From contig JAFEBR010000055.1 in NCBI GenBank assembly GCA_018242565.1, forward strand, positions 1 through 37,195: a stretch of DNA of 37,195 nt. Reading direction: 5' to 3'. The stretch comes from Planctomycetota bacterium (lineage in GTDB: Bacteria; Planctomycetota; Planctomycetia; Planctomycetales; Planctomycetaceae). Both the position numbers and the translations under genes were made by a program. Numbering within the stretch: the stretch's first letter is position 1; each line of letters starts with the position of its first letter. The notes beneath the pieces are model-generated. The model was not told the origin of the DNA. It made no database searches and saw nothing but the letters and a program-made list of their open reading frames with translations. This document shows, in pieces, positions 554 through 27,230 of the stretch.

Positions 554-2455
554 GTGCCGCACCGTTACCTGCTCGGCGCCGGGAGTGGGTTAGCGGTTCT
601 CGTCGTCGCCGCTGGTTTATTCTTCCGGTTCGGGGCACCGCCTGCCGTGCCGTCTGGCCCGCCACCTGCCATGGACCGTGCGCCTCTCCCCAACCTCCCC
701 CTCGAAAAGCCAACCGGTGGCTACGTGGGCTCGGCGGCTTGCCAGAGTTGCCACCCGAACCAACACGGCAGTTGGCATGAATCCTACCACCGCACGATGA
801 CCCAGGTCGCCACAGAAGAAAGCGTCGTTGGCGACTTCAACAATGTCCGCCTCTCAGGCAAGGATCTGGATGTCCGCCTGTTCAAGGAGGATGGACGGTT
901 CAAGGTGGAAATGAGCCTGAACCATTCGCCGACGACACGCGTCTACACCGTGGTCATGACGACCGGCTCCCATATTCGGCAAGCATACTGGCTGGCCGAT
1001 CCGCCCGACCGGGAGCTCATGTTACTGCCTTACATGTATCTGCGGGCCGAACAACGCTGGATTCCACGCCCGTCCGGATACATCACCAAAAATGGGCAGG
1101 CTGACAGCTCTGAGCTGGCCGCGTTCCGGAGCGAGAAAGGGAGGTGGTCGCAAGTTTGCATCAGGTGCCACACCACGCACGGACAGGCGAACCCGATCGA
1201 TCAATCCCTGGCGACGCCGCGCGTCGCGGAGTTGGGCATCTCCTGTGAGGCCTGTCATGGTCCCGGTGCAGCGCACATCGAGGCGACGCGCCGCCCTGAC
1301 GCGGGACAAGAGGCCCTGACCAGCATCGTCAACCCGGCCAAGCTGCCGCACGACCGCTCGGCCCAGGTGTGCGGACAATGTCATACCGTATTTCTCCCCC
1401 GCTCCGAAGCCGCGGGTGGCTACTGGCAAATGAACGGCAACACGTTTCGTCCGGGTGACGACTTGCTGGCCGACCGGATCTTTTATGTCGTACGCGGCCG
1501 TCTCGATCTTATGCCCGACCGCCCCGCCCACATCCCCGATCCTGTCGAGACGGGGAGTTTCTGGTCCGATGGGATGATCCGCGTCACCGGTCGCGAGTTC
1601 AGCGGGTTGATCGAGACCCCGTGTTATCAACGCGGGAGCATGTCGTGCCTGTCCTGCCATGAAATGCACCAGGACAATGGCGATCCACGCCCCCCGGCGG
1701 AGTGGGCCGCCGGCCAGCTCAAGCCGGGCATGGACGGCAATCTCGCCTGCGTGCAATGCCATAAGGAATTCGACGACGCTGCCGTGGTGGCTCAGCACTC
1801 GCACCACAAGGCCGATTCCTCGGGAAGTCGTTGTTACAACTGCCACATGCCGCATACGACCTACGGGCTGTTGAAAGCGACCCGCAGCCACATGGTCCAT
1901 TCGCCGCGAGTTGCGGATAGCCTGCAGACCGGCCGACCCAATGCCTGCAACCTGTGCCATCTGGATCAGACGCTGGCCTGGACGGCTGAAAAACTGGCGC
2001 TCTGGTACCAACAGCCCCTGCCGAAGCTGCCGGCGGATGAGGCGAATATTGCCGCGTCGGTGCTCTGGGCGCTCCGCGGCGACGCCGGTCAGCGAGCGTT
2101 GACTGCCTGGAGTTTCGGCTGGGCCGATGCACACCAGGCGTCCGGGAACAACTGGCAGGCGCCGTTTCTGGGGCAGCTCCTGGACGATCGTTACAATGCC
2201 GTGCGGTTCATCGCCCATCGGTCGTTGCGGCGTTTACCCGGATTTGGCGACTTTGACTACGATTTCGTGGGCGCGCCGGCGATACGCTCCGCCGCTGTGG
2301 TGAACGCGCGAAAAGTGTGGCAGCAATCCCAGGACGGCCAGAAGCGGCCTTTCGCCCCCCAGACCCTCATCGACCCGACCGGCCACATCCGGGAGGCCGA
2401 TTTCCAGCGGCTGTTGCGACGACGCGACGATCGCCCCATTGAATTCGCGGAATGA
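554..2455 (+). CDS. Membrane-anchored or exported octaheme c-type cytochrome
   Basis: This is a 633-residue protein starting at GTG. An N-terminal hydrophobic segment (about residues 5-27) should anchor or export it. Eight CXXCH heme-binding motifs are visible near residues 63, 202, 231, 273, 365, 399, 427 and 465, so eight covalent hemes are expected on the outer face of the membrane. The spacing resembles cytochrome c554/NrfA-like multiheme proteins, but I cannot place it in a characterised enzyme family. The last 150 residues lack heme motifs and look helical, perhaps HEAT-like. A role in electron transfer is inferred from the hemes; donor and acceptor are unknown. It stands alone, and no cytochrome maturation genes are nearby. 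The Shine-Dalgarno sequence is weak. Confidence 0.9.
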   Translation: MPHRYLLGAGSGLAVLVVAAGLFFRFGAPPAVPSGPPPAMDRAPLPNLPLEKPTGGYVGSAACQSCHPNQHGSWHESYHRTMTQVATEESVVGDFNNVRLSGKDLDVRLFKEDGRFKVEMSLNHSPTTRVYTVVMTTGSHIRQAYWLADPPDRELMLLPYMYLRAEQRWIPRPSGYITKNGQADSSELAAFRSEKGRWSQVCIRCHTTHGQANPIDQSLATPRVAELGISCEACHGPGAAHIEATRRPDAGQEALTSIVNPAKLPHDRSAQVCGQCHTVFLPRSEAAGGYWQMNGNTFRPGDDLLADRIFYVVRGRLDLMPDRPAHIPDPVETGSFWSDGMIRVTGREFSGLIETPCYQRGSMSCLSCHEMHQDNGDPRPPAEWAAGQLKPGMDGNLACVQCHKEFDDAAVVAQHSHHKADSSGSRCYNCHMPHTTYGLLKATRSHMVHSPRVADSLQTGRPNACNLCHLDQTLAWTAEKLALWYQQPLPKLPADEANIAASVLWALRGDAGQRALTAWSFGWADAHQASGNNWQAPFLGQLLDDRYNAVRFIAHRSLRRLPGFGDFDYDFVGAPAIRSAAVVNARKVWQQSQDGQKRPFAPQTLIDPTGHIREADFQRLLRRRDDRPIEFAE

Positions 2456-2668
2456 AATGATTCGGAACCAGCGGCTGTTTCGGTCCCGTGTTCAACACCG
2501 ACGACGATCCACAGTTCGCAAGTGAAGCCAGAGTTCCGAACCTGTCATCGAGGTCATCCATGCTCGCACGGATTGCCAGCGTTCTGGGCGAACGCGGCGA
2601 CTTCGCGCGTTTCCAGCGTCAAGGGATGATTCCATGAAAGACGGTCCGTCGCGGGCGAATCGGCATGG

Positions 2669-2697
2669 GTGACTTCCCCGGGGGGGGCGTGTATACT
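2669..2697 (+). promoter_or_regulatory. Candidate promoter for the dehydrogenase-dapA operon
   Basis: GTGACT (2669-2674) and TATACT (2692-2697) are separated by 17 bases and match the sigma-70 -35 and -10 consensus at four and five positions. Transcription would start near 2704, which favours the ATG at 2762 as the start of the next gene over an in-frame GTG at 2669. This is a consensus match only. The rest of the 2456-2761 gap shows nothing I recognise. Confidence 0.45.
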
Positions 2698-2761
2698 CGC
2701 CAGTCCGCCGGTTTTCGGCGCAGGCTCTCCCAATTTCCTCGTTGAAAGTCTGTTCGGCAGT

Positions 2762-3694
2762 ATGTCTGTACCTACGATTGCACCTGGAAAAACCCGGATT
2801 GGCTGGATTGGCACGGGGGTCATGGGGGTCAGCATGGCAGGACACCTGATGTCCGCCGGTTTTGCCACCACGGTCTACAATCGCCGTAAGGAAAAAGCCG
2901 AGGCCCTGCTGGCCAAAGGGGCCCAGTGGGGGGCCACACCGAAAGCCGTCGCCGAGGCGTCGGATGTCGTGTTTTCCATCGTCGGTTTTCCCAGCGACGT
3001 GCGGGAAGTCATGCTGGGGGCCGAGGGAGCGCTGGCCGGCTCGAAACCGGGGAACATTCTGGTCGACATGACGACGAGCGAGCCTTCGCTGGCCGTCGAA
3101 ATCCACAAAGCGGCCCAGGCCCGCGGGGTCCACAGCATCGACGCGCCGGTTTCTGGCGGAGATATCGGTGCCCGCGAAGCCCGGCTGTCGATCATGATCG
3201 GTGGTGACAAAGCCATCTCCGAAGCACTGACACCCTGCTGGAACGCGATGGGCAAAACCATCGTCCATCAAGGGGGACCAGGGGCCGGGCAGCACACCAA
3301 AATGGCCAATCAGATTCTGATTGCCACCAACATGATTGGTGTCTGCGAAGCCCTGCTTTACGGCTACAAAGCCGGGCTCGATCTGCCCACCCTGTTGCAG
3401 TCGGTCGGCCCCGGCGCGGCAGGAAGCTGGTCGCTGTCGAACCTGGGTCCGCGGATCATGAACAACAACTTCGATCCCGGCTTTTTCGTAGAACACTTTA
3501 TCAAGGATATGGGCATTGCCCACGACGAAGCCAAACGAATGGGGCTGAGTCTGCCGGGGCTGGCCCTGTCGCATCAATTGTATCTGGCGGTCAAAGCTCA
3601 AGGGCACGGGCGCGACGGAACTCACGCACTGCAACTGGCTCTGGCCAAACTGGCTGGCATAGACTGGAGAAATCGGAACGCTCATGGCAACTAA
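2762..3694 (+). CDS. NAD(P)-dependent beta-hydroxyacid dehydrogenase (3-hydroxyisobutyrate / tartronate semialdehyde reductase family)
   Basis: From the ATG at 2762 this is a 310-residue protein, close to the usual 290-300 of the family. The N-terminal Rossmann motif GWIGTGVMG, followed by MAGHLM, is the classic signature of 3-hydroxyisobutyrate dehydrogenase-like enzymes. The segment [12 protein letters not shown] matches the conserved substrate-binding loop, and [13 protein letters not shown] carries the catalytic lysine region. These enzymes reversibly oxidise small beta-hydroxyacids with NAD(P) in the cytoplasm. The substrate cannot be read from sequence. A longer frame from 2669 would overlap a likely promoter, so the shorter start is preferred. 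The gene overlaps dapA by 11 bases, which suggests co-translation and perhaps a linked role in handling small keto or hydroxy acids. Confidence 0.9.
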
Positions 3695-15865: not shown

Positions 15866-17257
15866 TCAACCCACATCGTTCTGAATTTGATGCTGGTTGA
15901 GTTTGTTGTAGAGCGTTTTCAAAGCGATTCCCAGTTCATTGGCCGTGCGGGGCTTGTCGCCGCTGTTGCGCTCGAGCGTTTCGAGAATGACTTCCATTTC
16001 GATTTCGCGCAACGTCTTGGGACGTTCGACCTCGCCGGGTTCACCCGCGATACGCAACTTGCGCGGTTTCTGGGTGATGCTCGTGGGCAGGTCTTCCACC
16101 TGCAGGGCATGACCATCAGACATGATCACAGCATGTTCCAGCGCGTTGGCCAGTTCGCGAACGTTGCCATTCCAATCGTGCTGCTTCAGCACGGCGACCA
16201 CGGCTTCCGGCAGAAAGCCATCGGGAAGCTGTGACCGTCGCAGATGGCGGGCGATCAGTGTCCGAGCCAGGTCAGGAATATCTTCGCGCCGCTCTCGCAA
16301 GGCGGGCAGCGGCACCTCAAATGTGTTCACTCGGAAGAACAGATCTTCACGGAAGCTGCCTTCTGCGACCATGTCTTTCAAATTGCGGTTCGTTGCGCAG
16401 ATGACTCGAATGTTGACGTGGAACGATTCGTTCTCGCCTACCCGGCGGACTTCTCCCGATTCCAGGACCCGCAGCAGTTTCACCTGCATGCCCTTATCGA
16501 GTTCACCCAGTTCGTCGAGGAACAGTGTGCCACCATTCGCGACTTCAATGAGACCTTTGCGTGTCGCGTCGGCACCCGTAAAGGCTCCTTTACGGTGGCC
16601 AAACAATTCACTTTCGACAAGGTTTTCGGGAAGTGCGCCACAATTGACGGCGACAAAGGGCATCTGGGCCCGCCGGCTTAATTCGTGAATTCTGCGCGCG
16701 ACCAGTTCTTTTCCCGTCCCAGTTTCGCCGAGGATCAGGACGTTGGAGTCCGTCGGCGCAATGCGCTCAATCAGCCGTTTGACCCGCTGCATGGCCGGCG
16801 TGTCGCCGACGATTTCCGGGCTGCCTTCGACGGCCTTGAGGCGCGTTTCCAAAGCGAGTGCCTTGTTCTTCAGATTTCGCTTGTCGGCGACGCGCTGCAA
16901 AACGCTGTTGATCAGGGCCAGCTTTGTGGGCTTGGTCAGAAAATCATAGACGCCGCGGCGTAAGGCCTGGATAGCATCTTCGATATTGCCATGGCCCGTG
17001 CTGATGATGATTTCGGTCTCAGGGGAAACGGTCTGCAAGTGGCTGACCACGTCCCAACCGGAAATTCCAGGCATCCGCAGGTCAATGATCGCGGCGTCAA
17101 AGGTGTTCTTCTCGATCGCCGCCAATGCTGTCTGCCCGTTTTCACAGATACAGACCTCATGGCCCATCCGCGGCAGTTCGATGCGCATCACATCTCGAAT
17201 TGGCGCCTCGTCGTCCACGAACAAGACGCGCAATTTATTCTGTGCAGACTGGATCAA
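15866..17257 (-). CDS. NtrC-type sigma-54-dependent response regulator
   Basis: The protein has 463 residues from a TTG at 17257. A strong AAGGAGG at 17264-17270 sits six bases upstream, which decides the start; an in-frame ATG at 17314 lacks such a site. The receiver domain (1-120) has the acidic pair in VDDE, phosphoacceptor Asp59 in IIDLRMPG and Lys in FLTKP. The AAA+ domain has Walker A GETGTGKE, the sigma-54 contact loop GAFTGA, Walker B GGTLFLDE and arginine-finger region. A Fis-type DNA-binding helix-turn-helix ends the protein (about 415-460). It should activate sigma-54 promoters after phosphorylation. No histidine kinase gene is nearby, so its partner is unknown. Confidence 0.95.
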   Translation of the reverse strand: MIQSAQNKLRVLFVDDEAPIRDVMRIELPRMGHEVCICENGQTALAAIEKNTFDAAIIDLRMPGISGWDVVSHLQTVSPETEIIISTGHGNIEDAIQALRRGVYDFLTKPTKLALINSVLQRVADKRNLKNKALALETRLKAVEGSPEIVGDTPAMQRVKRLIERIAPTDSNVLILGETGTGKELVARRIHELSRRAQMPFVAVNCGALPENLVESELFGHRKGAFTGADATRKGLIEVANGGTLFLDELGELDKGMQVKLLRVLESGEVRRVGENESFHVNIRVICATNRNLKDMVAEGSFREDLFFRVNTFEVPLPALRERREDIPDLARTLIARHLRRSQLPDGFLPEAVVAVLKQHDWNGNVRELANALEHAVIMSDGHALQVEDLPTSITQKPRKLRIAGEPGEVERPKTLREIEMEVILETLERNSGDKPRTANELGIALKTLYNKLNQHQIQNDVG

Positions 17258-17384
17258 CCACAACCTCCTTGTTGTCCGCCGGGGACTTCGTATCCCCCCC
17301 CGCTCTTTCCGCATGCCATCGCTTCCAGGTCTGGCGCTGCGGCAAGGGGCGGGATGTTATCAAGAGGCCTGATTTTGGTGAACA

Positions 17385-17570: not shown

Positions 17571-18788
17571 TCAGTCCGGCTCACGCCGGGGTCGTTTCCA
17601 GATATTGGCCTTGGGCTTCGCTTGTTTGAGGCGTGCCAGACCGTCATCGCTCACAGCTGTTTCCGACAGGTTGATCCACACGAGCGCCGGCAGTGTGTGT
17701 AAGTGAATCAAACCAGCGTCGGTCACGCCGGTATGGCTGAGATCCAACCATTCCAGATGAGAAAGCTCGGCCAAAAAGCCCAGCCCCTCATCGGTAATCG
17801 ACGTCTGACGTAAATTCAGTGTCTCCAGTCTCTTCAATTCCCGCAGACTTCCGAGACCAGCGTCCGTGACCGGGGTATCACTGAGGTTCAGCGTTCGCAG
17901 TTCTTTCAAATGCTGCAGGTGGACAAACCCCGTCCCCGTGACGCGGGTGTTGAAGAGTTCCAATCGTCGCAAGGCCCGAAACGCACCAATGTCCTTTAAC
18001 GCGGCATCTGTCACACGGGTCGAAGTCAGGTCGAGCACCTGCAGTTCTCGAAACCCTGCCAAGTGCAGCATGCCACCGCTGGTCACCTGTGTACCCGACA
18101 GATTCAGTTCGACGACGTGCGGCAAGGTGGTCAAACGGGCCAGCGCCAGGTCGTCGAACGGAATGCCTGCCAGGCTGATTTCGAGTGACGGGTTGGCAGA
18201 CGTCAATTCAGGAACGACGCGGCCCCCCAGGCGTTCGATCGTCCGGACCATGGTCAGTCGCGCTGTTTGGCGTTCGTTCAACACCTTCGAGCGCGTTCTG
18301 GAAAATAACGACGACGAGTCTTCCAGAAAGTCTGAAAGAATCAGGCGACGCAGGCGGTCGAGGTCTGGCTCCAGCAAGCGAATGGCATCGTCGGCTGAAA
18401 TCTCTTGTGATTTAAGATCCAGCTCGTCGAGTGACGTCATAATTCTTTTGACATCGCCCGCCCCGGCCAGTTGCAGCATTTTCTTCTGGTCTGCCGACAA
18501 CGTGCCACAGATCAATTCCACGACCTGGAGCTTCTCTTTGAGCCTGGAGTTGAGAATTCCCCAGGCACCGGTCGCCGTCTGGGACGAACTCACCAGGGAA
18601 TAGGTATTCACTTTCCGCTGCGCGTCGAGTCTGGGTACCGGCGCCGAAGCTTCAACCTGGACCTCGACCTCATCATCGGCAGGCTGGGCATAACCCATTC
18701 CCGGCGACAACACACTGCACGACCAGACGCCCACCCAGATCAGGCAGGTCGTACAGCAGAACCGGATTCCGGCAGTGCGACTTGGCAT
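17571..18788 (-). CDS. Secreted leucine-rich repeat protein
   Basis: The 405-residue protein has an N-terminal signal peptide (about 1-35, ending near GYAQPADD). The region to about 200 is helical and unrecognised. Residues about 205-395 contain some seven leucine-rich repeats of about 24 residues. The repeated pattern is L..L..L.LS.T.VTDAGL..L, like the internalin-related repeats abundant in planctomycetes. Such repeats usually bind proteins or other surface ligands. It lies 179 bases downstream of the HtrA-like gene on the same strand with a strong palindrome between, so co-transcription is uncertain. A role at the cell surface or in the periplasm is inferred. Confidence 0.85.
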   Translation of the reverse strand: MPSRTAGIRFCCTTCLIWVGVWSCSVLSPGMGYAQPADDEVEVQVEASAPVPRLDAQRKVNTYSLVSSSQTATGAWGILNSRLKEKLQVVELICGTLSADQKKMLQLAGAGDVKRIMTSLDELDLKSQEISADDAIRLLEPDLDRLRRLILSDFLEDSSSLFSRTRSKVLNERQTARLTMVRTIERLGGRVVPELTSANPSLEISLAGIPFDDLALARLTTLPHVVELNLSGTQVTSGGMLHLAGFRELQVLDLTSTRVTDAALKDIGAFRALRRLELFNTRVTGTGFVHLQHLKELRTLNLSDTPVTDAGLGSLRELKRLETLNLRQTSITDEGLGFLAELSHLEWLDLSHTGVTDAGLIHLHTLPALVWINLSETAVSDDGLARLKQAKPKANIWKRPRREPD

Positions 18789-18967: not shown

Positions 18968-20401
18968 TTACTCCGCCGGCAGCCGACGCTGCTGTTTTTG
19001 CATCCGTTTCAATTCTTCCGTCAGTTTTTCCATCTGCTCACGCAGCGAATTCATATCCCGGGCGATCGTTTCGAGTCTTTTATCGAGATCGGTGCGTTCA
19101 ACCTGGATCGACGGGACGGACACATTCGGGTCAACGACCCCTTTTAGCACGGGAATCTTCACAGGCTTGCCGTCGATTGTCTGCTCGATATATTCCAGCC
19201 TGGGCCGGCCGAGGACTCTCGCCCGCTTGATTTCATTCAAGTTTTCGACTTTCGCGTCTGCCGCGGCGGCGGTTTCGACGGGCCTGGCGCCCAAGACGAT
19301 CTCAAAGACCTGTTCATTGCCAGAACGCCTGATTTTCACTCGCACCTTCTGTCCAGCAGACCGGGCCAGAATCTTGCGGACGAGCTCGGCAGGCGATTCC
19401 ACCGGCTCATCATCGATCGCCAGAATCTGATCGTCCTTGACGATTCCAGCCTGGGCTGCCGGCGCGTCGTTCAAGGTATTGGAAACCACCGTGGACTCGG
19501 AATCGAACGCCACACCCAGCACCGCCCGCGGGATCGTCACGAGTTCCTCGCCTTTCCGGGCATCAACGAGTCGCTGGACCGCAGCAGCCGGAATGGCAAA
19601 GCCGATGTTCTGCGAGTTGCCACTGAATCCAATCACGCCAATCAACAATCCCTGTTCGTTCACCAGAGGAGCCCCCGCACTGCCCACCGCGGGAGCGGCA
19701 TCAATCTGCAGCAGATCGTGCCCCTGACCATCGACATCGCGCCCGACCGCGGCAATCATGGCGCGGCTGGCGGCCCGATCTTTCGCTCCCAGGCAATAGG
19801 TCCAGGCGACGTCATCACCAATCAAGGCCGGATCGCGAGCCGGTACCAGAAAAGGCAAATCGTTCGCTTCGACTTTCAGCAGTTGCAGCCCCGATCGCAG
19901 GTCGTTGACCAGCAATTTCGCAGGCAGCTTGCGGCGGTCACTCAGCGTGACCGTCAACTGACTGCCCGGTTTAACGACGATTTTTGTCACCACCAGTCCG
20001 TCGGCTGACACCAGAGTTCCGCTGGCCAGTCCCGCCTGATCAACGGCCGCTTGGGAGCTGGCACTGGCCAGATCGGCGTAATATTTGAAGATCTCCGCTT
20101 TTTGTTCCGACTTGAGATCCTGGAGTTGACGCAATCGGTTAACCAGGACCCGGTCTACGATCGCATCGGTCAGGCCCGATCCCGGTGGCAGGGGTTTGCC
20201 CGCATCGGCGGCCGGTTCTCCAGCCGGATCGGCATGATGCCACTCGACGCAAACGGTTGCGGCCAACGCTTTGCGGATTGTCTCCCGCTGACCGGCCAGT
20301 GCTCGACTGCACGAGACGGCCATCAGCCCCAGGCTGATGGCCAACATGGCTGCCACGCAGCGTCTCAAATGACCCTGCATCCACTGTGTGTACAAATTCA
20401 T
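18968..20401 (-). CDS. Secreted HtrA-like PDZ pseudoprotease
   Basis: The protein has 477 residues from the ATG at 20401, which has CAGGAG eight bases upstream; an in-frame ATG at 20434 lacks one. A signal sequence covers about 1-37. The trypsin-like fold of HtrA/DegP is recognisable, but the catalytic triad is gone. The His position is Val in GLVVTKIVV (136-144). The Asp position is Gly in DLRSGLQLLK, and the nucleophile Ser is Ala in GSAGAPLVN (240-248). A 70-residue insertion separates the first strand from GTLVSADG. One PDZ domain (about 296-374) and a C-terminal coiled coil (about 430-472) follow. It cannot be a normal serine protease; a binding, sensing or chaperone role is inferred. 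It starts 30 bases after the membrane protein gene. Confidence 0.88.
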   Translation of the reverse strand: MNLYTQWMQGHLRRCVAAMLAISLGLMAVSCSRALAGQRETIRKALAATVCVEWHHADPAGEPAADAGKPLPPGSGLTDAIVDRVLVNRLRQLQDLKSEQKAEIFKYYADLASASSQAAVDQAGLASGTLVSADGLVVTKIVVKPGSQLTVTLSDRRKLPAKLLVNDLRSGLQLLKVEANDLPFLVPARDPALIGDDVAWTYCLGAKDRAASRAMIAAVGRDVDGQGHDLLQIDAAPAVGSAGAPLVNEQGLLIGVIGFSGNSQNIGFAIPAAAVQRLVDARKGEELVTIPRAVLGVAFDSESTVVSNTLNDAPAAQAGIVKDDQILAIDDEPVESPAELVRKILARSAGQKVRVKIRRSGNEQVFEIVLGARPVETAAAADAKVENLNEIKRARVLGRPRLEYIEQTIDGKPVKIPVLKGVVDPNVSVPSIQVERTDLDKRLETIARDMNSLREQMEKLTEELKRMQKQQRRLPAE

Positions 20402-20430
20402 ACGCTCATTCTCCTGTTCCATGGAAATTG

Positions 20431-20964
20431 TCAAATTACGTCTTCAGAACGCTGTGTGTATTCGGGGCCGAGCAGTTGAGAAACGACCCCTTTCTCAGCC
20501 GGACTCAGCTTATCCCAATCACTTTCCGAAGTGGCCCCGGGGACGTACCAGACCGCCTGATAGCGGGTCTGACCATCCGTACCGGGTAATTCCATCAGCA
20601 AAGGGACCGGTTGTGTCAGTTCCGCCAAGGCCTGAATCAACACGGACTGAACCGATTCCCGGTGTGCACCTGGTTCGGGTTCTCTGACCGGTTCTTTGAC
20701 GACCTGCGGCTTAACAACCAGCGGCCTGACAGCCATCTGTCTGGGGGGCTCGGTGTGCCACCACACAGCCCATCCCAGGCAGGCCATCAGGCCGGCGACG
20801 GTTGTTGCTGATAGAACTCCGATCACCCTTCGCTGCCGTCGCTGCCGTTGTGCCGGTTCCTGCAGATACGCCAGCGGGCGACCGGCCGGCATGACGTCCA
20901 GCAGTCGCTGGGCCTCTTCCATGAGGCTGGCAGTCAGGGGATCGAACGGATCATTTTCGGACAT
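20431..20964 (-). CDS. Single-pass membrane protein, probable anti-sigma factor
   Basis: The 177-residue protein has a polar, arginine-rich N-terminal part of about 46 residues, one membrane segment (about 48-68) and a 109-residue C-terminal domain that should lie outside the membrane. It overlaps the ECF sigma gene by 14 bases. This overlap and the topology fit an anti-sigma factor. However, the N-terminus is short and lacks the HXXXCXXC zinc motif, and I do not recognise the family. The outer domain includes the segment RYQAVWYVPG and has no known motif. It may sense a signal together with the HtrA-like protein encoded next. The assignment rests on gene order. Confidence 0.65.
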   Translation of the reverse strand: MSENDPFDPLTASLMEEAQRLLDVMPAGRPLAYLQEPAQRQRRQRRVIGVLSATTVAGLMACLGWAVWWHTEPPRQMAVRPLVVKPQVVKEPVREPEPGAHRESVQSVLIQALAELTQPVPLLMELPGTDGQTRYQAVWYVPGATSESDWDKLSPAEKGVVSQLLGPEYTQRSEDVI

Positions 20965-21466
20965 GTTGTTTCAACCCTTTCTCCAGTGCCCCGAGCGCCA
21001 AATGCAGTCGGGACTTCACCGTCCCCAGCGGGCACTTCAAGACCTGCGCAATATCTTCGTACGAGAGTCCCTCGGCGAATCGCAGCACGACGGTTTCGCG
21101 CTGCGCCTCGGGAAGTTTCGAAACCGCGTCCCACAGTTCGGCTTTCCATTCTGTAGCCAGAAGTCCCGCATCCGGGGCCTCGCGATTCGCCTGTTGACCT
21201 CGGTTTTCCAACCAGCCTAACCAGCGTCGGAGTATCCGCTGTGCCGATCGTCTCCGCCGTCGATGCTGATTCATCAAAATCGCGTAGAGCCAGGTTTCCA
21301 CCCGACTGTGACCGCGAAACCGCGACCAGCCATCTGCCGCCTGTAACAGTGTCTCCTGAGCCAGATCGTCGGCATCCCACACGTTGCCCTGACAAAGCAG
21401 CAGCGCGGCCCGCCGAATTCGCGGGTAGATCGCGGCGATCGTGTCTTCGAAATCCTGTTCGTCCAC
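20951..21466 (-). CDS. ECF-type RNA polymerase sigma factor
   Basis: The 171-residue protein, from a GTG start, has the two-domain layout of group IV sigma factors. Region 2 (about 5-70) includes DADDLAQETLLQA and FRGHSRVETWLYAI. Region 4 (about 113-165) includes LPEAQRETVVLRF and the helix-turn-helix YEDIAQVLKCPLGTVKSRL. It directs RNA polymerase to a specific promoter set, usually when released from an anti-sigma factor. It is first in a minus-strand operon with the membrane protein and the HtrA-like protein. No Shine-Dalgarno is obvious. ECF promoters are too variable to call by eye here. Confidence 0.93.
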   Translation of the reverse strand: MDEQDFEDTIAAIYPRIRRAALLLCQGNVWDADDLAQETLLQAADGWSRFRGHSRVETWLYAILMNQHRRRRRSAQRILRRWLGWLENRGQQANREAPDAGLLATEWKAELWDAVSKLPEAQRETVVLRFAEGLSYEDIAQVLKCPLGTVKSRLHLALGALEKGLKQHVRK

Positions 21467-21750
21467 AATAAACCGATCAGCAGTGACAGAGGCTGAACGT
21501 TAATTAGTGCCCACCGACCCCAGATCGTTCACCAGAAAACGGCCGTTTCAAAGGATTTGGGAATTTCGCCCCATTTTCACCCCAAACACCATCCGGAACA
21601 ACAACCGGCAATGGCCCGTGACTCTCCCAATCCGCAGAACCGTTCAGGCACCGTTCAAAGGCTAAATCGCCAGGGGCTTTAGTTGCCCGTCGTCACTTTC
21701 CGAGCGGTCCCGGCCGTTCGAGGCGAATCGGGGAAACTGACGGATAAATA

Positions 21751-21779
21751 GAGACAGTTGTGATGCGATTGTTTATGAT
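21751..21779 (+). promoter_or_regulatory. msrA: Candidate msrA promoter
   Basis: GAGACA (21751-21756) and TATGAT (21774-21779) are 17 bases apart, with four and five consensus matches. Transcription would start near 21786 and leave a leader of about 110 bases. The stretch 21467-21750 shows no other site I can support. Confidence 0.45.
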
Positions 21780-21897
21780 ACCATGGCAAGCGCGGGGTTC
21801 GACGCCTGACGGCCACCGACCGATCCGTGCCTGTTCGCGAAATCTGATTTTCGAGGCGATCATCCCAGATCGCCCAGTCATTGGATCGGAGGGAATG

Positions 21898-22617
21898 ATG
21901 TTGAATCGCCTGGCGACCGTTGCCCTTTCCACGTTGGCCCTGTGCAGTCTGGCAGCCTGGCTTTCGGCTGCCCAGCCTCCAGCAACCGAAAAGCCACAGC
22001 CTGCGGAAAGTAAGGCCGAAAGCAAACCTCAGGCCGGCACCGAGTCCCGACCGAAACTCGAAGTGGCCACACTCGGATCGGGTTGTTTCTGGTGCGGCGA
22101 AGCGGTGTTTGAAGAAATTCGGGGCGTGAAATTAGTGGTGTCAGGATACAGCGGCGGCGACGTCGTGAATCCCACCTATGAGCAGGTCTCGACCGGAATG
22201 ACGGGCCATGCAGAAGTGATTCAGATCACCTTTGACCCGGCTGTCATTTCTTTCGACGAGATTCTCGAGATCTTCTGGAAATCACACGACCCCACCAAGC
22301 TGAACGAACAGGGTCCCGATCATGGAACCCAGTATCGCTCAGCCATTTTTTACCACAGCGAAGAACAACGCGAAGTCGCCGAAAAATCCAAACAGAAGCA
22401 CACCAAAACCCCCAAGGGTACGCGGAAGATTGTGACGGAGATCACTAAGTTCTCTGCGTTCTACCCAGCGGAGGACTACCACCAGGACTTTTTCAAGAAC
22501 AACCCGCGTTACAGATACTGTCAGGCGATCGTCAAACCGAAAGTCGCCAAGGTCCGTAAGGAATTCAAAGATCAGTTGAAAGACGCTCCGGAAAAAGACA
22601 AGCCGGGCAAGAAGTAG
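21898..22617 (+). CDS. msrA: Exported peptide-methionine (S)-S-oxide reductase
   Basis: The protein has 239 residues from the second of two adjacent ATG codons; GGAGGG ends four bases before it. A signal peptide spans about 1-26, followed by a charged linker (27-52). The MsrA domain has the catalytic motif GCFWCGE (Cys63), SGYSGG, and QVSTGMTGHAE, followed by the HDPT and DHGTQYRSAIFY segments and FYPAEDYHQDFF. A later Cys in RYRYCQ could resolve the disulfide. It repairs oxidised methionine, here outside the cytoplasm. A longer in-frame start at 21760 would lie upstream of the likely transcription start. It is divergent from the ECF operon and 59 bases upstream of the next gene. Confidence 0.94.
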   Translation: MLNRLATVALSTLALCSLAAWLSAAQPPATEKPQPAESKAESKPQAGTESRPKLEVATLGSGCFWCGEAVFEEIRGVKLVVSGYSGGDVVNPTYEQVSTGMTGHAEVIQITFDPAVISFDEILEIFWKSHDPTKLNEQGPDHGTQYRSAIFYHSEEQREVAEKSKQKHTKTPKGTRKIVTEITKFSAFYPAEDYHQDFFKNNPRYRYCQAIVKPKVAKVRKEFKDQLKDAPEKDKPGKK

Positions 22618-22676
22618 ACCGCGGCCATTTCCGGATGACAGAGAGCACGTGACCTGTGATGCAGTCGAGAGTGCGC

Positions 22677-25600
22677 ATGAGCGGAAGAGAGCCTGACTCT
22701 GTCCGGATGGCGCCCACGGTGCGGTACGTGCTCTGCCTGGTGCTGGCTGTCGTAACCGGGGCCGCCGGTTCGGCGCCGATTCGGGCCCAGCAATTCGTTC
22801 CCGGAGGTCAGAGTGCCACGACACCTCCTGCGCCCGATTTAAATGTGGGAGCCAGTCCCACGACCCGCGAACTGTCTAAACGTTTCGAGCGGGCCCTGAA
22901 ACTGATCGGGGAAGAGAACTTCGCCGAAGCGTCGCGTCTCCTGCAGACGATTCTCGACAGCGACGAAGATGTTTTCATCCGGTCAGAAACCTCAGCCGAA
23001 GTCGCCGACCAGAGCCTGAAGCTCAAAGTGCACCAATTGCTGCTGACGTGGTCGAACGAGGGGCGCGAAGCGTACGAACGACAACAGGGTGCGGCGGCCC
23101 GGCGCCTGCTGGATGACGCGATCAAGACCCACGATCTCGAAGCCATCGCACTCGTGGCCCGACGGTACTTCCACACACAGGCGGGACATGAAGCCACCTA
23201 CCGTTTAGCCGCCGACCATTCCGATCACGATCGGCCCCTGCAGGCGGCGATTGGCTACGACCGATTGTTATCGATTCCCGGAGGGGCCAGCCGCTTCGAA
23301 CCCTACTTGTCGATCCGGTGCGCGACGAGTTGGTTGCGAACCGGTCTGCCCGACAAGGCGCGCGAAGTCCTGGCACAACTGCAGCAGCGACATCCCCAGA
23401 AAACTCTCAAGATCGGCGGGCGTACTCTCGATGTGTATGCCGACCCGGCCGCGGCCCTGACGTGGCTGGCGGCGACAACCGGCGATCCTCCGGCGGACTC
23501 GGGGAACAGTCCCCTGAACTGGACCACCGTGGGGGGCGATGCCGCTCGCAACGCTCCCAGTTCCGGCGGCAGCCCCTATCTCAATCGCGGGTGGCGCTCG
23601 AGCACGATTGAAGGCTCAACGAACCTGCATGAGCACGATGTCGCCCTGACACGGGCGTTCGACGCACAACGCCAATTGACGTCAGGCACCGAAGACGAAG
23701 TCGTGGGGCCGGTTATTTCCTCCATGCAGCCCCTGGTGGTCGGAGACCTCGTCATCGCCCGCAGCATGGGAGACATCCGGGCGTATGACCTGACGTCGGG
23801 ACGGCTGGCCTGGGCAACCGGTGAAAAAGACCAGGCGCTGCATGATGTCATTCAGTCTGGGTTTGGAATTCCCACTCCCCAGGCACAACCCGTCGGCAGT
23901 TCACAACTCGCAGCGGCGATTCTGCAGCGAGGCTGGGATGATGCCAGTTTCGGGACCCTCAGCAGCGATGGCGACCTCGTGTTTGCCCTCGAAGATCTGC
24001 CGATCAATCCTCCCAACCTCGATCAGAACCCGCTGCGGTCGTTTCAGACTCATAATCGCCTGGTCGCGTACGACGCCCGGTCAGGATCTCTGGTCTGGGA
24101 AATTGGCGGTCCGTCGAGTGCTCCCGATGACCCGTTGTCCTCGTCGTTTTTTCTCGGCCCCCCACTCGTCCTTGATCGACGCCTGTTCTGCCTCGTGGAA
24201 ACGGGGGGTGATGTTCGAGTTGTCGTGCTTATCCCACGGACCGGCCAGGTCGAATGGCAGCAGACGCTGACCACGCTCACACCATCAGAACTGTCGGTCG
24301 CCATTGCCCGCAGACTGTCGGGCCTGACTCCCTCGTTTTCGGGAGACATTCTCGTCTGCCCGATCGGTGCCGAACAGGTAGTCGGCCTGAGCCTGTCGCA
24401 GCGGATGCTGCTGTGGCGGTACCGATTGAAACAACCGGCCGAGCTGATCGATCCGGTCGATCCACGCCGTCGGCTGATGCGCCAACGGGGTTTGAACCCC
24501 GCTCGGATGTCCGCCAACATGTCGGGCGACCAGAATCGCTGGCTCGATTCCCAGGCGCTGATCGCCGACCTGCGGGTCATCGTCACCCCCCGCGGTGCCG
24601 ATGAACTGTACTGCCTGAATCTTCTGGATGGTTCCCTGGTGTGGAAGAAACCACGCGGTGAGGGCTTGTTCGTCGCCGGGGTCCATCACGGCAAACTGCT
24701 CGTCGTCGGCCGCAATTTCGTCACGGCTCTTAAACTTGGCGACGGAGAGCCCGCCTGGCCGGAACCCGCGCGCCTGCCGCGACCAAGCGGTCGAGGATTC
24801 ATGGCCGGAGAATTTCTGCACCTGCCGCTGCTCACGGCCGAGGTCGCATCGATCAACCTGCTCGATGGTCGGGTGGTCGCCCGTTCGCGATCACAGGCAG
24901 GCAACGTTCCGGGGAACCTTGCTGCCGTGCGTGGCACCGTCGTCTCACAGGGTGCCGATTTTGTCGAAGCCTACCGTCAACTGGATGCTCTCGAAGCCGA
25001 AATTGCCGATCGACTGGCGAAGAATCAAGACGATCCCCAGGCCTTGAAGCTGCGAGGTGAAATTCAGTTGCAGCGGGGCAAGTCGATCGAAGCGTATCAG
25101 GATCTCAAGCGGGCCCTCGAACTCGATCCCAATGACGCAGGCATTCGCTCGCTGCTGGTGGGCAGCCTGCTCGAAGGCATGCGTGTCGATTTCGACAAGT
25201 ATCGCAAACTCGACAGCGAGATCGAATCGCTGGTGAGCACTCCCCAGGAACGCTCGACTCATCTCTGGCTGAAAATTCTCGGTTTGACACGTGCCGGAGA
25301 TGGTCCGGCGGCACTGGCTGCCCTGCTCAAATTCGGTGATCCCCACATCGCCGACCAGGAATTCGAACGTATCGATGCAGAACTCTCGGTGCGTCGCGAT
25401 CGCCTGGTGCGGGCTCGGGCCGCCGAGTTGTTTGCCACCGCCTCGCCACAACTTCAACAGGAAGTGCTCCGCACGATCGCTGGTCAGGTCGACACGTATC
25501 TCGGCCAGAATGATCAGGCCGCACTGCGGCGACTGTTTCGATATTTCCAACTGCCACTCGCGGGCAGTCCGCTCGACCAGTTGAACGCCAACCTGCCCCT

Positions 25601-27230
25601 CGATACCGACTGGCTGGCCGACGAGTTTCGTCTCGCCCCCTTAACTCGCCGTAACGATTCGGGAGTCGCCGCGGTCGCGATGGGGCGTCTCATGCAGTTG
25701 TGTCTCTCGGCCGAGCGCCCGCGCGACGCTTTGGCGGCAGCCCGTAAGCTGGCAACGCAATGGCCCGACGCGGTCAGCCTCGAAGGTAAGACCGGGCGTG
25801 ACCTGGCGAACGAATGGCTGGCTCGCACCGAACTGACGCGGGAAATGGCGCTCGAATCGCCGTGGCCGAACGGACCGGTCGAAGTCGAACGACTGGAAGC
25901 CGTCGGACCGGCGGCCGAGCGGCACTTTGACCTGACGATCGTTGGCGACCGTGGTCCGTATCTGCAAGATACCCGGTTGCTGCTGAACGCCAACTGGCGC
26001 GATGTGAGTGCCCGCGACTCTCTCGGCCGGCAACTGTGGAAGTTGAATCTCGAAGCGCCTTTTCCTCAAGGCCGTCCGGATTTCAATCGTGTTTTCCCGT
26101 GTGGACACCTGCTCGTCGTGTCGGTCGGTTCTGAACTCGTGGCGCTCGATGTCCTGGGAACGGCCGATCAACCTGGACCGCGGGTCCTGTGGACTTACAC
26201 CTTCCGCTCGGCTGGTGTCGCTCCCAGCATTCCCCAGCGCAACTTCGACATCAATACGCGTCGGCGGATGATCTACAACGAAATGAACGAACAGGTGGGT
26301 GCCCTCGGTCCCGTCACGGGCGACCAGGTCACACTGCTTTCCGGTCGCAAGCTCATGGCACTCGACGCCCTCACCGGCAAACCGGTCTGGACCCGCGAAG
26401 GGGTGCGACCGGGAACCGAGTTGTTTGGAGATGAGCGCTACGTCTTCGCAATTTCGGCGGATGGCGTACAGGCCAAAGTCTACGACGCCGTCGATGGCAA
26501 ATTCCTGGGCGAACGCTCACTGCCCCCGGCCAGCAAACGCATCGAGACGATCGGATCGCACATGATCACCTGGAAGATCAAAGGGGGGCGTCAGGTGCTG
26601 GCACGTTTTGATCCGTGGTCGGGTACCGACCTCTGGTCGCGCGATTTCGACGACACGGCCCAGGTCACCACGGTCGCCACCGAAGAAGCCGTCGTTCTCG
26701 AAATTTCCGGGAAGCTGACCGTGGTCTCCCTCGCCGATGGCACGGTGAAGTTCAGGGCACCCACCGAACCCGAACCGAGTCTCAGGCAACTGTACGTCAG
26801 CCGTTCGCGGGACCGATACATCGTCATTGCCAACCAGCCCACCGAATCGACCGGCTGGCAACTGGCGACGCCACAGACCGTGCAGGTGCATGGCCGGGTG
26901 TATGCCTTCGATCGCACGACCGGCCGACGGGAATGGATGACAGAAATCCATCGGCAGGGGTGGGATCTCAATCAGCCTGGCGAATTACCGGTCATGACGT
27001 TTGCCAGTCAGTACACGATGCAAAGGGGCAACCTGCCCAGTTTTCAAACCATGTGGGGTCTGACCTGTCTCGACAAGCGCACCGGCAAGATCCTCTACGA
27101 CAATCGCGAGCTGAACCAGAACTTGCTGTTCGTTGATTACCAGGGCGACGTCGATCTGAAACAACTCGACATCCGGTCGTTTCGTCTGGGATTACGCCTG
27201 CACTTCAAAGACGCCGCGCAGAAGGAATAG
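22677..27230 (+). CDS. Very large secreted PQQ-like beta-propeller and TPR protein
   Basis: The protein has about 1,517 residues from the ATG at 22677, which has GAGAG five bases upstream; in-frame starts also exist at 22656, 22659 and 22707. A signal peptide ends near PIRAQQ. A helical N-terminal region (about 50-260) resembles TPR. The first propeller region (about 340-750) has PQQ-like repeats such as DIRAYDLTSGRLAW and RLVAYDARSGSLVWE. A TPR segment (about 760-830) follows, including ALKLRGEIQLQRGKSIEAY. A second propeller region (about 1080-1490) has MALDALTGKPVWTREG and RVYAFDRTTGRREW. No cofactor residues identify an enzyme, so it may be a binding scaffold like BamB. It may be co-transcribed with msrA. 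Confidence 0.85.
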   Translation: MSGREPDSVRMAPTVRYVLCLVLAVVTGAAGSAPIRAQQFVPGGQSATTPPAPDLNVGASPTTRELSKRFERALKLIGEENFAEASRLLQTILDSDEDVFIRSETSAEVADQSLKLKVHQLLLTWSNEGREAYERQQGAAARRLLDDAIKTHDLEAIALVARRYFHTQAGHEATYRLAADHSDHDRPLQAAIGYDRLLSIPGGASRFEPYLSIRCATSWLRTGLPDKAREVLAQLQQRHPQKTLKIGGRTLDVYADPAAALTWLAATTGDPPADSGNSPLNWTTVGGDAARNAPSSGGSPYLNRGWRSSTIEGSTNLHEHDVALTRAFDAQRQLTSGTEDEVVGPVISSMQPLVVGDLVIARSMGDIRAYDLTSGRLAWATGEKDQALHDVIQSGFGIPTPQAQPVGSSQLAAAILQRGWDDASFGTLSSDGDLVFALEDLPINPPNLDQNPLRSFQTHNRLVAYDARSGSLVWEIGGPSSAPDDPLSSSFFLGPPLVLDRRLFCLVETGGDVRVVVLIPRTGQVEWQQTLTTLTPSELSVAIARRLSGLTPSFSGDILVCPIGAEQVVGLSLSQRMLLWRYRLKQPAELIDPVDPRRRLMRQRGLNPARMSANMSGDQNRWLDSQALIADLRVIVTPRGADELYCLNLLDGSLVWKKPRGEGLFVAGVHHGKLLVVGRNFVTALKLGDGEPAWPEPARLPRPSGRGFMAGEFLHLPLLTAEVASINLLDGRVVARSRSQAGNVPGNLAAVRGTVVSQGADFVEAYRQLDALEAEIADRLAKNQDDPQALKLRGEIQLQRGKSIEAYQDLKRALELDPNDAGIRSLLVGSLLEGMRVDFDKYRKLDSEIESLVSTPQERSTHLWLKILGLTRAGDGPAALAALLKFGDPHIADQEFERIDAELSVRRDRLVRARAAELFATASPQLQQEVLRTIAGQVDTYLGQNDQAALRRLFRYFQLPLAGSPLDQLNANLPLDTDWLADEFRLAPLTRRNDSGVAAVAMGRLMQLCLSAERPRDALAAARKLATQWPDAVSLEGKTGRDLANEWLARTELTREMALESPWPNGPVEVERLEAVGPAAERHFDLTIVGDRGPYLQDTRLLLNANWRDVSARDSLGRQLWKLNLEAPFPQGRPDFNRVFPCGHLLVVSVGSELVALDVLGTADQPGPRVLWTYTFRSAGVAPSIPQRNFDINTRRRMIYNEMNEQVGALGPVTGDQVTLLSGRKLMALDALTGKPVWTREGVRPGTELFGDERYVFAISADGVQAKVYDAVDGKFLGERSLPPASKRIETIGSHMITWKIKGGRQVLARFDPWSGTDLWSRDFDDTAQVTTVATEEAVVLEISGKLTVVSLADGTVKFRAPTEPEPSLRQLYVSRSRDRYIVIANQPTESTGWQLATPQTVQVHGRVYAFDRTTGRREWMTEIHRQGWDLNQPGELPVMTFASQYTMQRGNLPSFQTMWGLTCLDKRTGKILYDNRELNQNLLFVDYQGDVDLKQLDIRSFRLGLRLHFKDAAQKE

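Follow-up and report, generated by a model that had tools for sequence, protein, structure and literature searches.

How could an envelope signal reach an ECF sigma factor if the HtrA-like protein encoded beside it is unable to cleave? Envelope-stress sigma systems are the textbook case of control by regulated cleavage. The question is raised by three genes in the window, i.e. the whole stretch of 37,195 nt of planctomycete DNA that was analyzed here.

Organization of the operon

The close-packed trio lies on the minus strand and consists, in the 5′ to 3′ direction, of an ECF sigma factor gene, a gene for a membrane protein (MP), and a gene for an HtrA-like protein. The sigma factor (positions 20951 to 21466, GTG start, 171 aa) contains the sigma-70 regions 2 and 4_2 (Pfam PF04542 and PF08281). 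MP (20431 to 20964, 177 aa) has a single transmembrane (TM) segment according to hydropathy and is a putative anti-sigma factor. The third gene (18968 to 20401, ATG start) encodes an HtrA-like pseudoprotease of 477 aa with a hydrophobic N-terminus, a Trypsin_2 domain, and a PDZ domain. The initial annotation had described the three genes as tightly packed, and both distances were recovered when they were read again from the sequence: the sigma and MP genes overlap by 14 nt, and 29 nt separate the MP gene from the ATG of the HtrA-like gene at 20401. An alternative TTG start of the HtrA-like gene at 20434 is possible and would give a 4-nt overlap with the MP gene.

Distribution in Planctomycetia

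With the sigma factor as query, its ortholog group is sharply set apart, with at least 159 bits versus at most 118 bits for the next ECFs. In the class Planctomycetia, this query revealed the operon set in at least 26 of the 397 sampled genomes. The number is a lower bound because just 8 candidates per genome were scored, and one carrier found in the search of the window's own family (G010) is missing from the class-wide matches. The set was found in 5 of 170 genomes of the window's own family, which a gene-order search covered as well, and in 28 of 159 genomes of another family (f5). Across the class, the three-gene set is patchy; among named organisms, it is carried by Blastopirellula marina DSM 3645 and Planctomycetales bacterium 10988.

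Almost every locus that is covered by enough sequence has the order sigma factor, single-TM protein, HtrA-like protein. This order recurs in many families of Planctomycetia, far beyond close relatives, and so the lack of conservation that the initial annotation had named as counter-evidence to a signaling operon was not encountered. MP as query matched in the same genus only (in the sister species), because MP diverges fast, and the sigma factor is the useful query.

The ECFs with 118 bits or less were taken to belong to other systems; two of them were read, and a zf-HC2-like protein is encoded downstream of each. L044 and L047 represent another kind of planctomycete ECF locus, in which the sigma gene is followed by one for a zf-HC2-like protein whose C-terminal part is long.

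The membrane protein

The predicted layout of MP comprises about 46 cytoplasmic residues, one TM segment (about residues 47–66; positions 20767 to 20826, minus strand), and about 110 periplasmic residues. Hydropathy predicts the TM helix, and AF2 modeling of the L096 ortholog placed it between one confident N-terminal helix and a C-terminal helix, with low confidence for all other parts. The HxxxCxxC motif of class I zinc anti-sigma factors, the lack of which had been annotated initially, is indeed absent, and no Cys precedes the TM segment. A Pfam search with MP matched no family, and searches of MP with anti-sigma models gave none above the cut-off; NCBIfam NF052375 (“anti-sigma factor”) yielded weak, sub-threshold matches in 3 of 18 MP members.

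An ECF sigma gene followed by the gene for a single-TM putative anti-sigma factor is the arrangement of SigmaE-RseA-DegS systems, and from gene order and topology we infer that MP is an anti-sigma factor. The sigma-binding part of class II (CnrY-like) anti-sigma factors has less than about 50 residues and forms two helices that wrap the sigma factor; we know of no PDZ partner of CnrY-type proteins. Class II domains are as short as the N-terminal part of MP, and the two share a very short cytoplasmic part beside one TM segment, a likeness seen in layout (PMC7406223).

Loss of the catalytic triad in the HtrA-like protein

The HtrA-like protein of the window has a trypsin-like domain (19550 to 20041, minus strand) followed by a PDZ domain, i.e. 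the domain order of the HtrA/DegS fold family. Its AF2 model (mean pLDDT 75.8) has a DegS/AlgW-like fold, and the best structural matches include peptide-bound DegS and AlgW, with Z of about 27. Alignment with intact planctomycete HtrA paralogues placed V142, G171, and A242 at the positions of the catalytic His, Asp, and Ser, respectively, so that the intact triad of HtrA (S1C) proteases is missing.

The initial annotation had called the window protein a dead protease, and the alignment extends this to the whole operon group. It contained 34 operon sequences, one of which (L086) is a broken fragment. No readable operon protein retains the catalytic His, only that of L083 retains the Asp, and the residue at the Ser position varies. 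The full His-Asp-Ser triad, which a site-1 protease of the SigmaE-RseA-DegS type has, is present in none of them, whereas most of the co-aligned planctomycete paralogues are intact. The HtrA-like protein as query retrieved mainly paralogues, most of them with an intact triad, and the window genome contains 15 other HtrA-like stretches besides the operon's protein.

In the PDZ domain (19283 to 19528, minus strand; Pfam PF13180), the carboxylate-binding position is occupied by a conserved x-G-phi loop. In the 34-member alignment, a PDZ domain with this carboxylate-loop pattern and a hydrophobic N-terminal stretch are common to all readable members. A C-terminal coiled coil (18983 to 19096, minus strand; helix 436–473 of the AF2 model) completes the protein, and a coiled-coil-like tail is found in the other members where they are complete. 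In L086, the HtrA-like gene (about 1516–3003) is broken over two overlapping frames, perhaps by a frameshift or an assembly error.

A conserved C-terminal tail of MP

MP orthologs are often <40% identical, yet their C-termini are alike in kind, with a short helix motif and a hydrophobic last residue. In the window, this module (LSPAE..VV..LL helix motif and the hydrophobic end ..SEDVI) lies at 20434 to 20508 on the minus strand. The helix motif is LSGPELEGLLDL-like across the orthologs and reads LSPAEKGVVSQLL in the window. In 35 of 35 MPs from the first set of loci with an HtrA-like gene, the last residue was I, L, F, or M. As a background, 184 ORFs were taken from these loci, of which 12% have I, L, F, M, or V as the last residue. 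Twenty-five of the 35 are representatives with <40% identity to each other, and 20 of these 25 have a hydrophobic residue also at position −2 (e.g. VSL, ISI, IGF), making phi-x-phi the majority pattern. SEDVI, the tail in the window, departs more from the typical pattern at −2 than Pirellulales tails do. In the new loci of family f5, the MP end is hydrophobic wherever MP is complete. Overlap coding as a source of the hydrophobic ends was considered and rejected, because the distance from MP to the start of the HtrA-like gene ranges from overlap to more than 100 nt. Phi-x-phi C-termini are ligands of the DegS and AlgW PDZ domains (PMC8545111), and the sequence of the MP tail suggests that it is PDZ-ligand-like.

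Fusions of MP with the coiled coil

In four loci (L085, L090, L161, and L170), the downstream stretch of about 6 kb is devoid of an HtrA-like gene. The last residues of the MPs from these loci are R, P, K, and R, respectively, and the tail module is absent. Instead, these MPs contain a coiled coil, and an HMM of the HtrA-like tail matches them at 32–50 bits; the best of 800 shuffles reached 13.9 bits, and MPs from loci with an HtrA-like gene had values of 4.3 bits or less. Read most simply, this means that the coil would have been joined straight to MP upon loss of the dead protease and its PDZ domain.

In the sigma tree, the four loci are nested in a clade whose outer branches all carry an HtrA-like gene. 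The best tree has four changes, with only one independent pair on supported branches, and the AU test does not reject a single origin (p 0.29), so the four fusions may be one event. The link between the tail and the HtrA-like gene is thus phylogenetically weak as a statistic, while the observation itself is unaffected.

A putative promoter motif at the operon

A putative ECF promoter, TGAAC-N16-GCACTAA, is located at 21504 to 21531 (minus strand), and its downstream end is 37 nt ahead of the GTG start of the sigma gene. Of 41 operon loci, 21 have the motif class TGAAC-N16/18-GCAC ahead of the sigma gene, compared with an expected mean of 0.13 and a maximum of 2 in 100 dinucleotide shuffles. 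In about half of the 41 loci it was not found at this position, and the sister species (L080) has no such site, showing that the element is not universal.

The strict form TGAAC-N16/17-GCACTAA has a single match in the 9.3-Mb genome of the window, at this operon, and the strict N17 form has one match per genome in five Pirellulaceae genomes, always at the operon. A search for a wider regulon with the strict pattern returned the operon alone in the six genomes with a strict match, and matches to a relaxed pattern did not exceed a reversed-pattern control. We therefore regard autoregulation of the operon as probable; other targets were not recognizable by this motif. The strict motif occurs exactly once in each of G000 (the window genome), G211, G226, G040, G196, and G441, as though this promoter were reserved for the sigma factor.

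Binding versus cleavage

We propose an autoregulated ECF/anti-sigma module in which a pseudoprotease takes the place of the cutting protease and binds the tail of the anti-sigma factor through its PDZ domain, a model to which we give about even chances. Gene order, topology, and the conserved N-terminal helix suggest that the short cytoplasmic N-terminus of MP would hold the sigma factor at the membrane. The periplasmic C-terminus (phi-x-phi-COOH) would dock in the PDZ domain of the neighboring HtrA-like protein, as conservation and fusions suggest. Unable to cleave, that protein would act as a PDZ adaptor or shield, with the input carried by the coiled coil and the HtrA fold. The PDZ groove might be contested by client C-termini or some other ligand from the envelope, or these might alter the docked state. 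MP would then let the sigma factor go, either directly or via an exposed hydrophobic C-terminus open to RseP or other proteases. The freed sigma factor would transcribe its own operon from TGAAC-N16/17-GCAC, and more MP and pseudoprotease would close a feedback loop.

As in SigmaE-RseA-DegS systems, the window genome encodes an RseP-type site-2 protease (TIGR00054 above cut-off, G000:C734), which may take part in sigma release. Work by Li from 2009 (cited in PMC7728848) reportedly found that RseP cleavage of RseA needs a C-terminal hydrophobic residue. Signal transfer by binding rather than by cleavage is supported indirectly by the conservation of the hydrophobic MP C-termini and by the fusion of MP with the coil in loci that lack the HtrA-like gene. 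The fuller claim, i.e. that an HtrA/PDZ pseudoprotease signals by docking the anti-sigma C-terminus, that the operon itself is the sole recognizable target of the sigma loop, and that a fusion bypasses the dead protease and its PDZ domain in some lineages, has in our estimate slightly less than even chances.

The MP tails would also fit ordinary regulated intramembrane proteolysis, in which another, active HtrA cuts MP, RseP acts next, and the pseudoprotease merely shields MP, as RseB shields RseA from cleavage. The genome has candidates for both cuts, i.e. the further HtrA-like stretches and the RseP-type protease, and shielding of a hydrophobic C-terminus by the PDZ domain agrees with the conserved tails. 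However, the operon shows no linkage to an active HtrA, and the fused loci do without a PDZ domain altogether; we regard this scenario as rather unlikely.

Distinctly unlikely is a role of the HtrA-like protein as mere output, i.e. as a sigma-controlled periplasmic chaperone without contact to MP, the tail of which would then serve contacts with RseP, the membrane, or the like. HtrA folds can work as chaperones without protease activity, and with the operon as the sole strict-motif target in six genomes its product would be the main output; but the tail and the HtrA-like gene are jointly absent in four loci, and it is the HtrA-like coil that is fused to MP there. It is highly improbable that MP is a membrane scaffold or sensor rather than an anti-sigma factor, with the sigma factor controlled mainly by transcription: MP has no significant anti-sigma match, and its short N-terminal part has one confident helix in the ortholog model, but its gene is directly downstream of the sigma gene, usually overlapping it, in the loci read, its N-terminal helix motif and single TM segment are as in membrane anti-sigma factors, and class II anti-sigma domains are no longer than its N-terminal part (PMC7406223).

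Comparison with known systems

The planctomycete operon shares with RpoE-RseA-DegS-RseP of E. coli and AlgU-MucA-AlgW of P. aeruginosa an ECF sigma factor with an adjoining single-TM protein that lacks a zinc motif, a DegS/AlgW-like HtrA fold with PDZ domain, and a site-2 protease in the genome. In contrast to both, the operon itself codes for the HtrA-like protein, which is devoid of the triad and has an extra C-terminal coiled coil, and the membrane protein itself has a PDZ-ligand-like C-terminus. The sigE-rseA-htrA genes of Mycobacterium tuberculosis have the order sigma factor, anti-sigma factor, HtrA, and the HtrA (Rv1223) keeps its triad; the gene order is alike, whereas the triad is lost across the planctomycete group.

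A degenerate triad kept over a clade is typical of pseudoproteases such as MamO, and the operon proteins conform to it. In magnetotactic bacteria, MamO is a metal-binding pseudoprotease of the HtrA type that activates MamE; it and the operon protein have in common the HtrA fold, the degenerate triad, and a non-catalytic role (putative in the planctomycete protein), but MamO has no sigma factor operon (PMC4794232). The parts are thus of known kinds, i.e. an ECF sigma factor, a membrane anti-sigma factor, an HtrA fold, and an HtrA pseudoprotease like MamO (PMC4794232). The combination was nowhere described in a literature search that had the main ECF classification outside its scope, where it may be listed without a name.

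If the proposed model is true, an HtrA/PDZ scaffold can transmit a signal by binding alone, in a widely kept system. The many ECF factors of Planctomycetes are mostly uncharacterized, and the operon would offer an envelope circuit amenable to testing; one of its carriers is Blastopirellula marina DSM 3645. The natural fusions of MP and coil indicate which contacts matter.

Neighboring genes

Upstream of the sigma gene and divergent from it is a gene for MsrA (peptide methionine sulfoxide reductase) with an N-terminal extension (21760–22617, plus strand), and an ORF of 1524 aa with an apparent secretion signal is found at 22656–27230 (plus strand). On the strand of the operon, a gene for a leucine-rich-repeat protein (17571–18788) lies 179 nt past the HtrA-like gene, and an NtrC-type sigma-54 response regulator with receiver, AAA+, and Fis HTH domains is encoded at 15866–17314 (minus strand).
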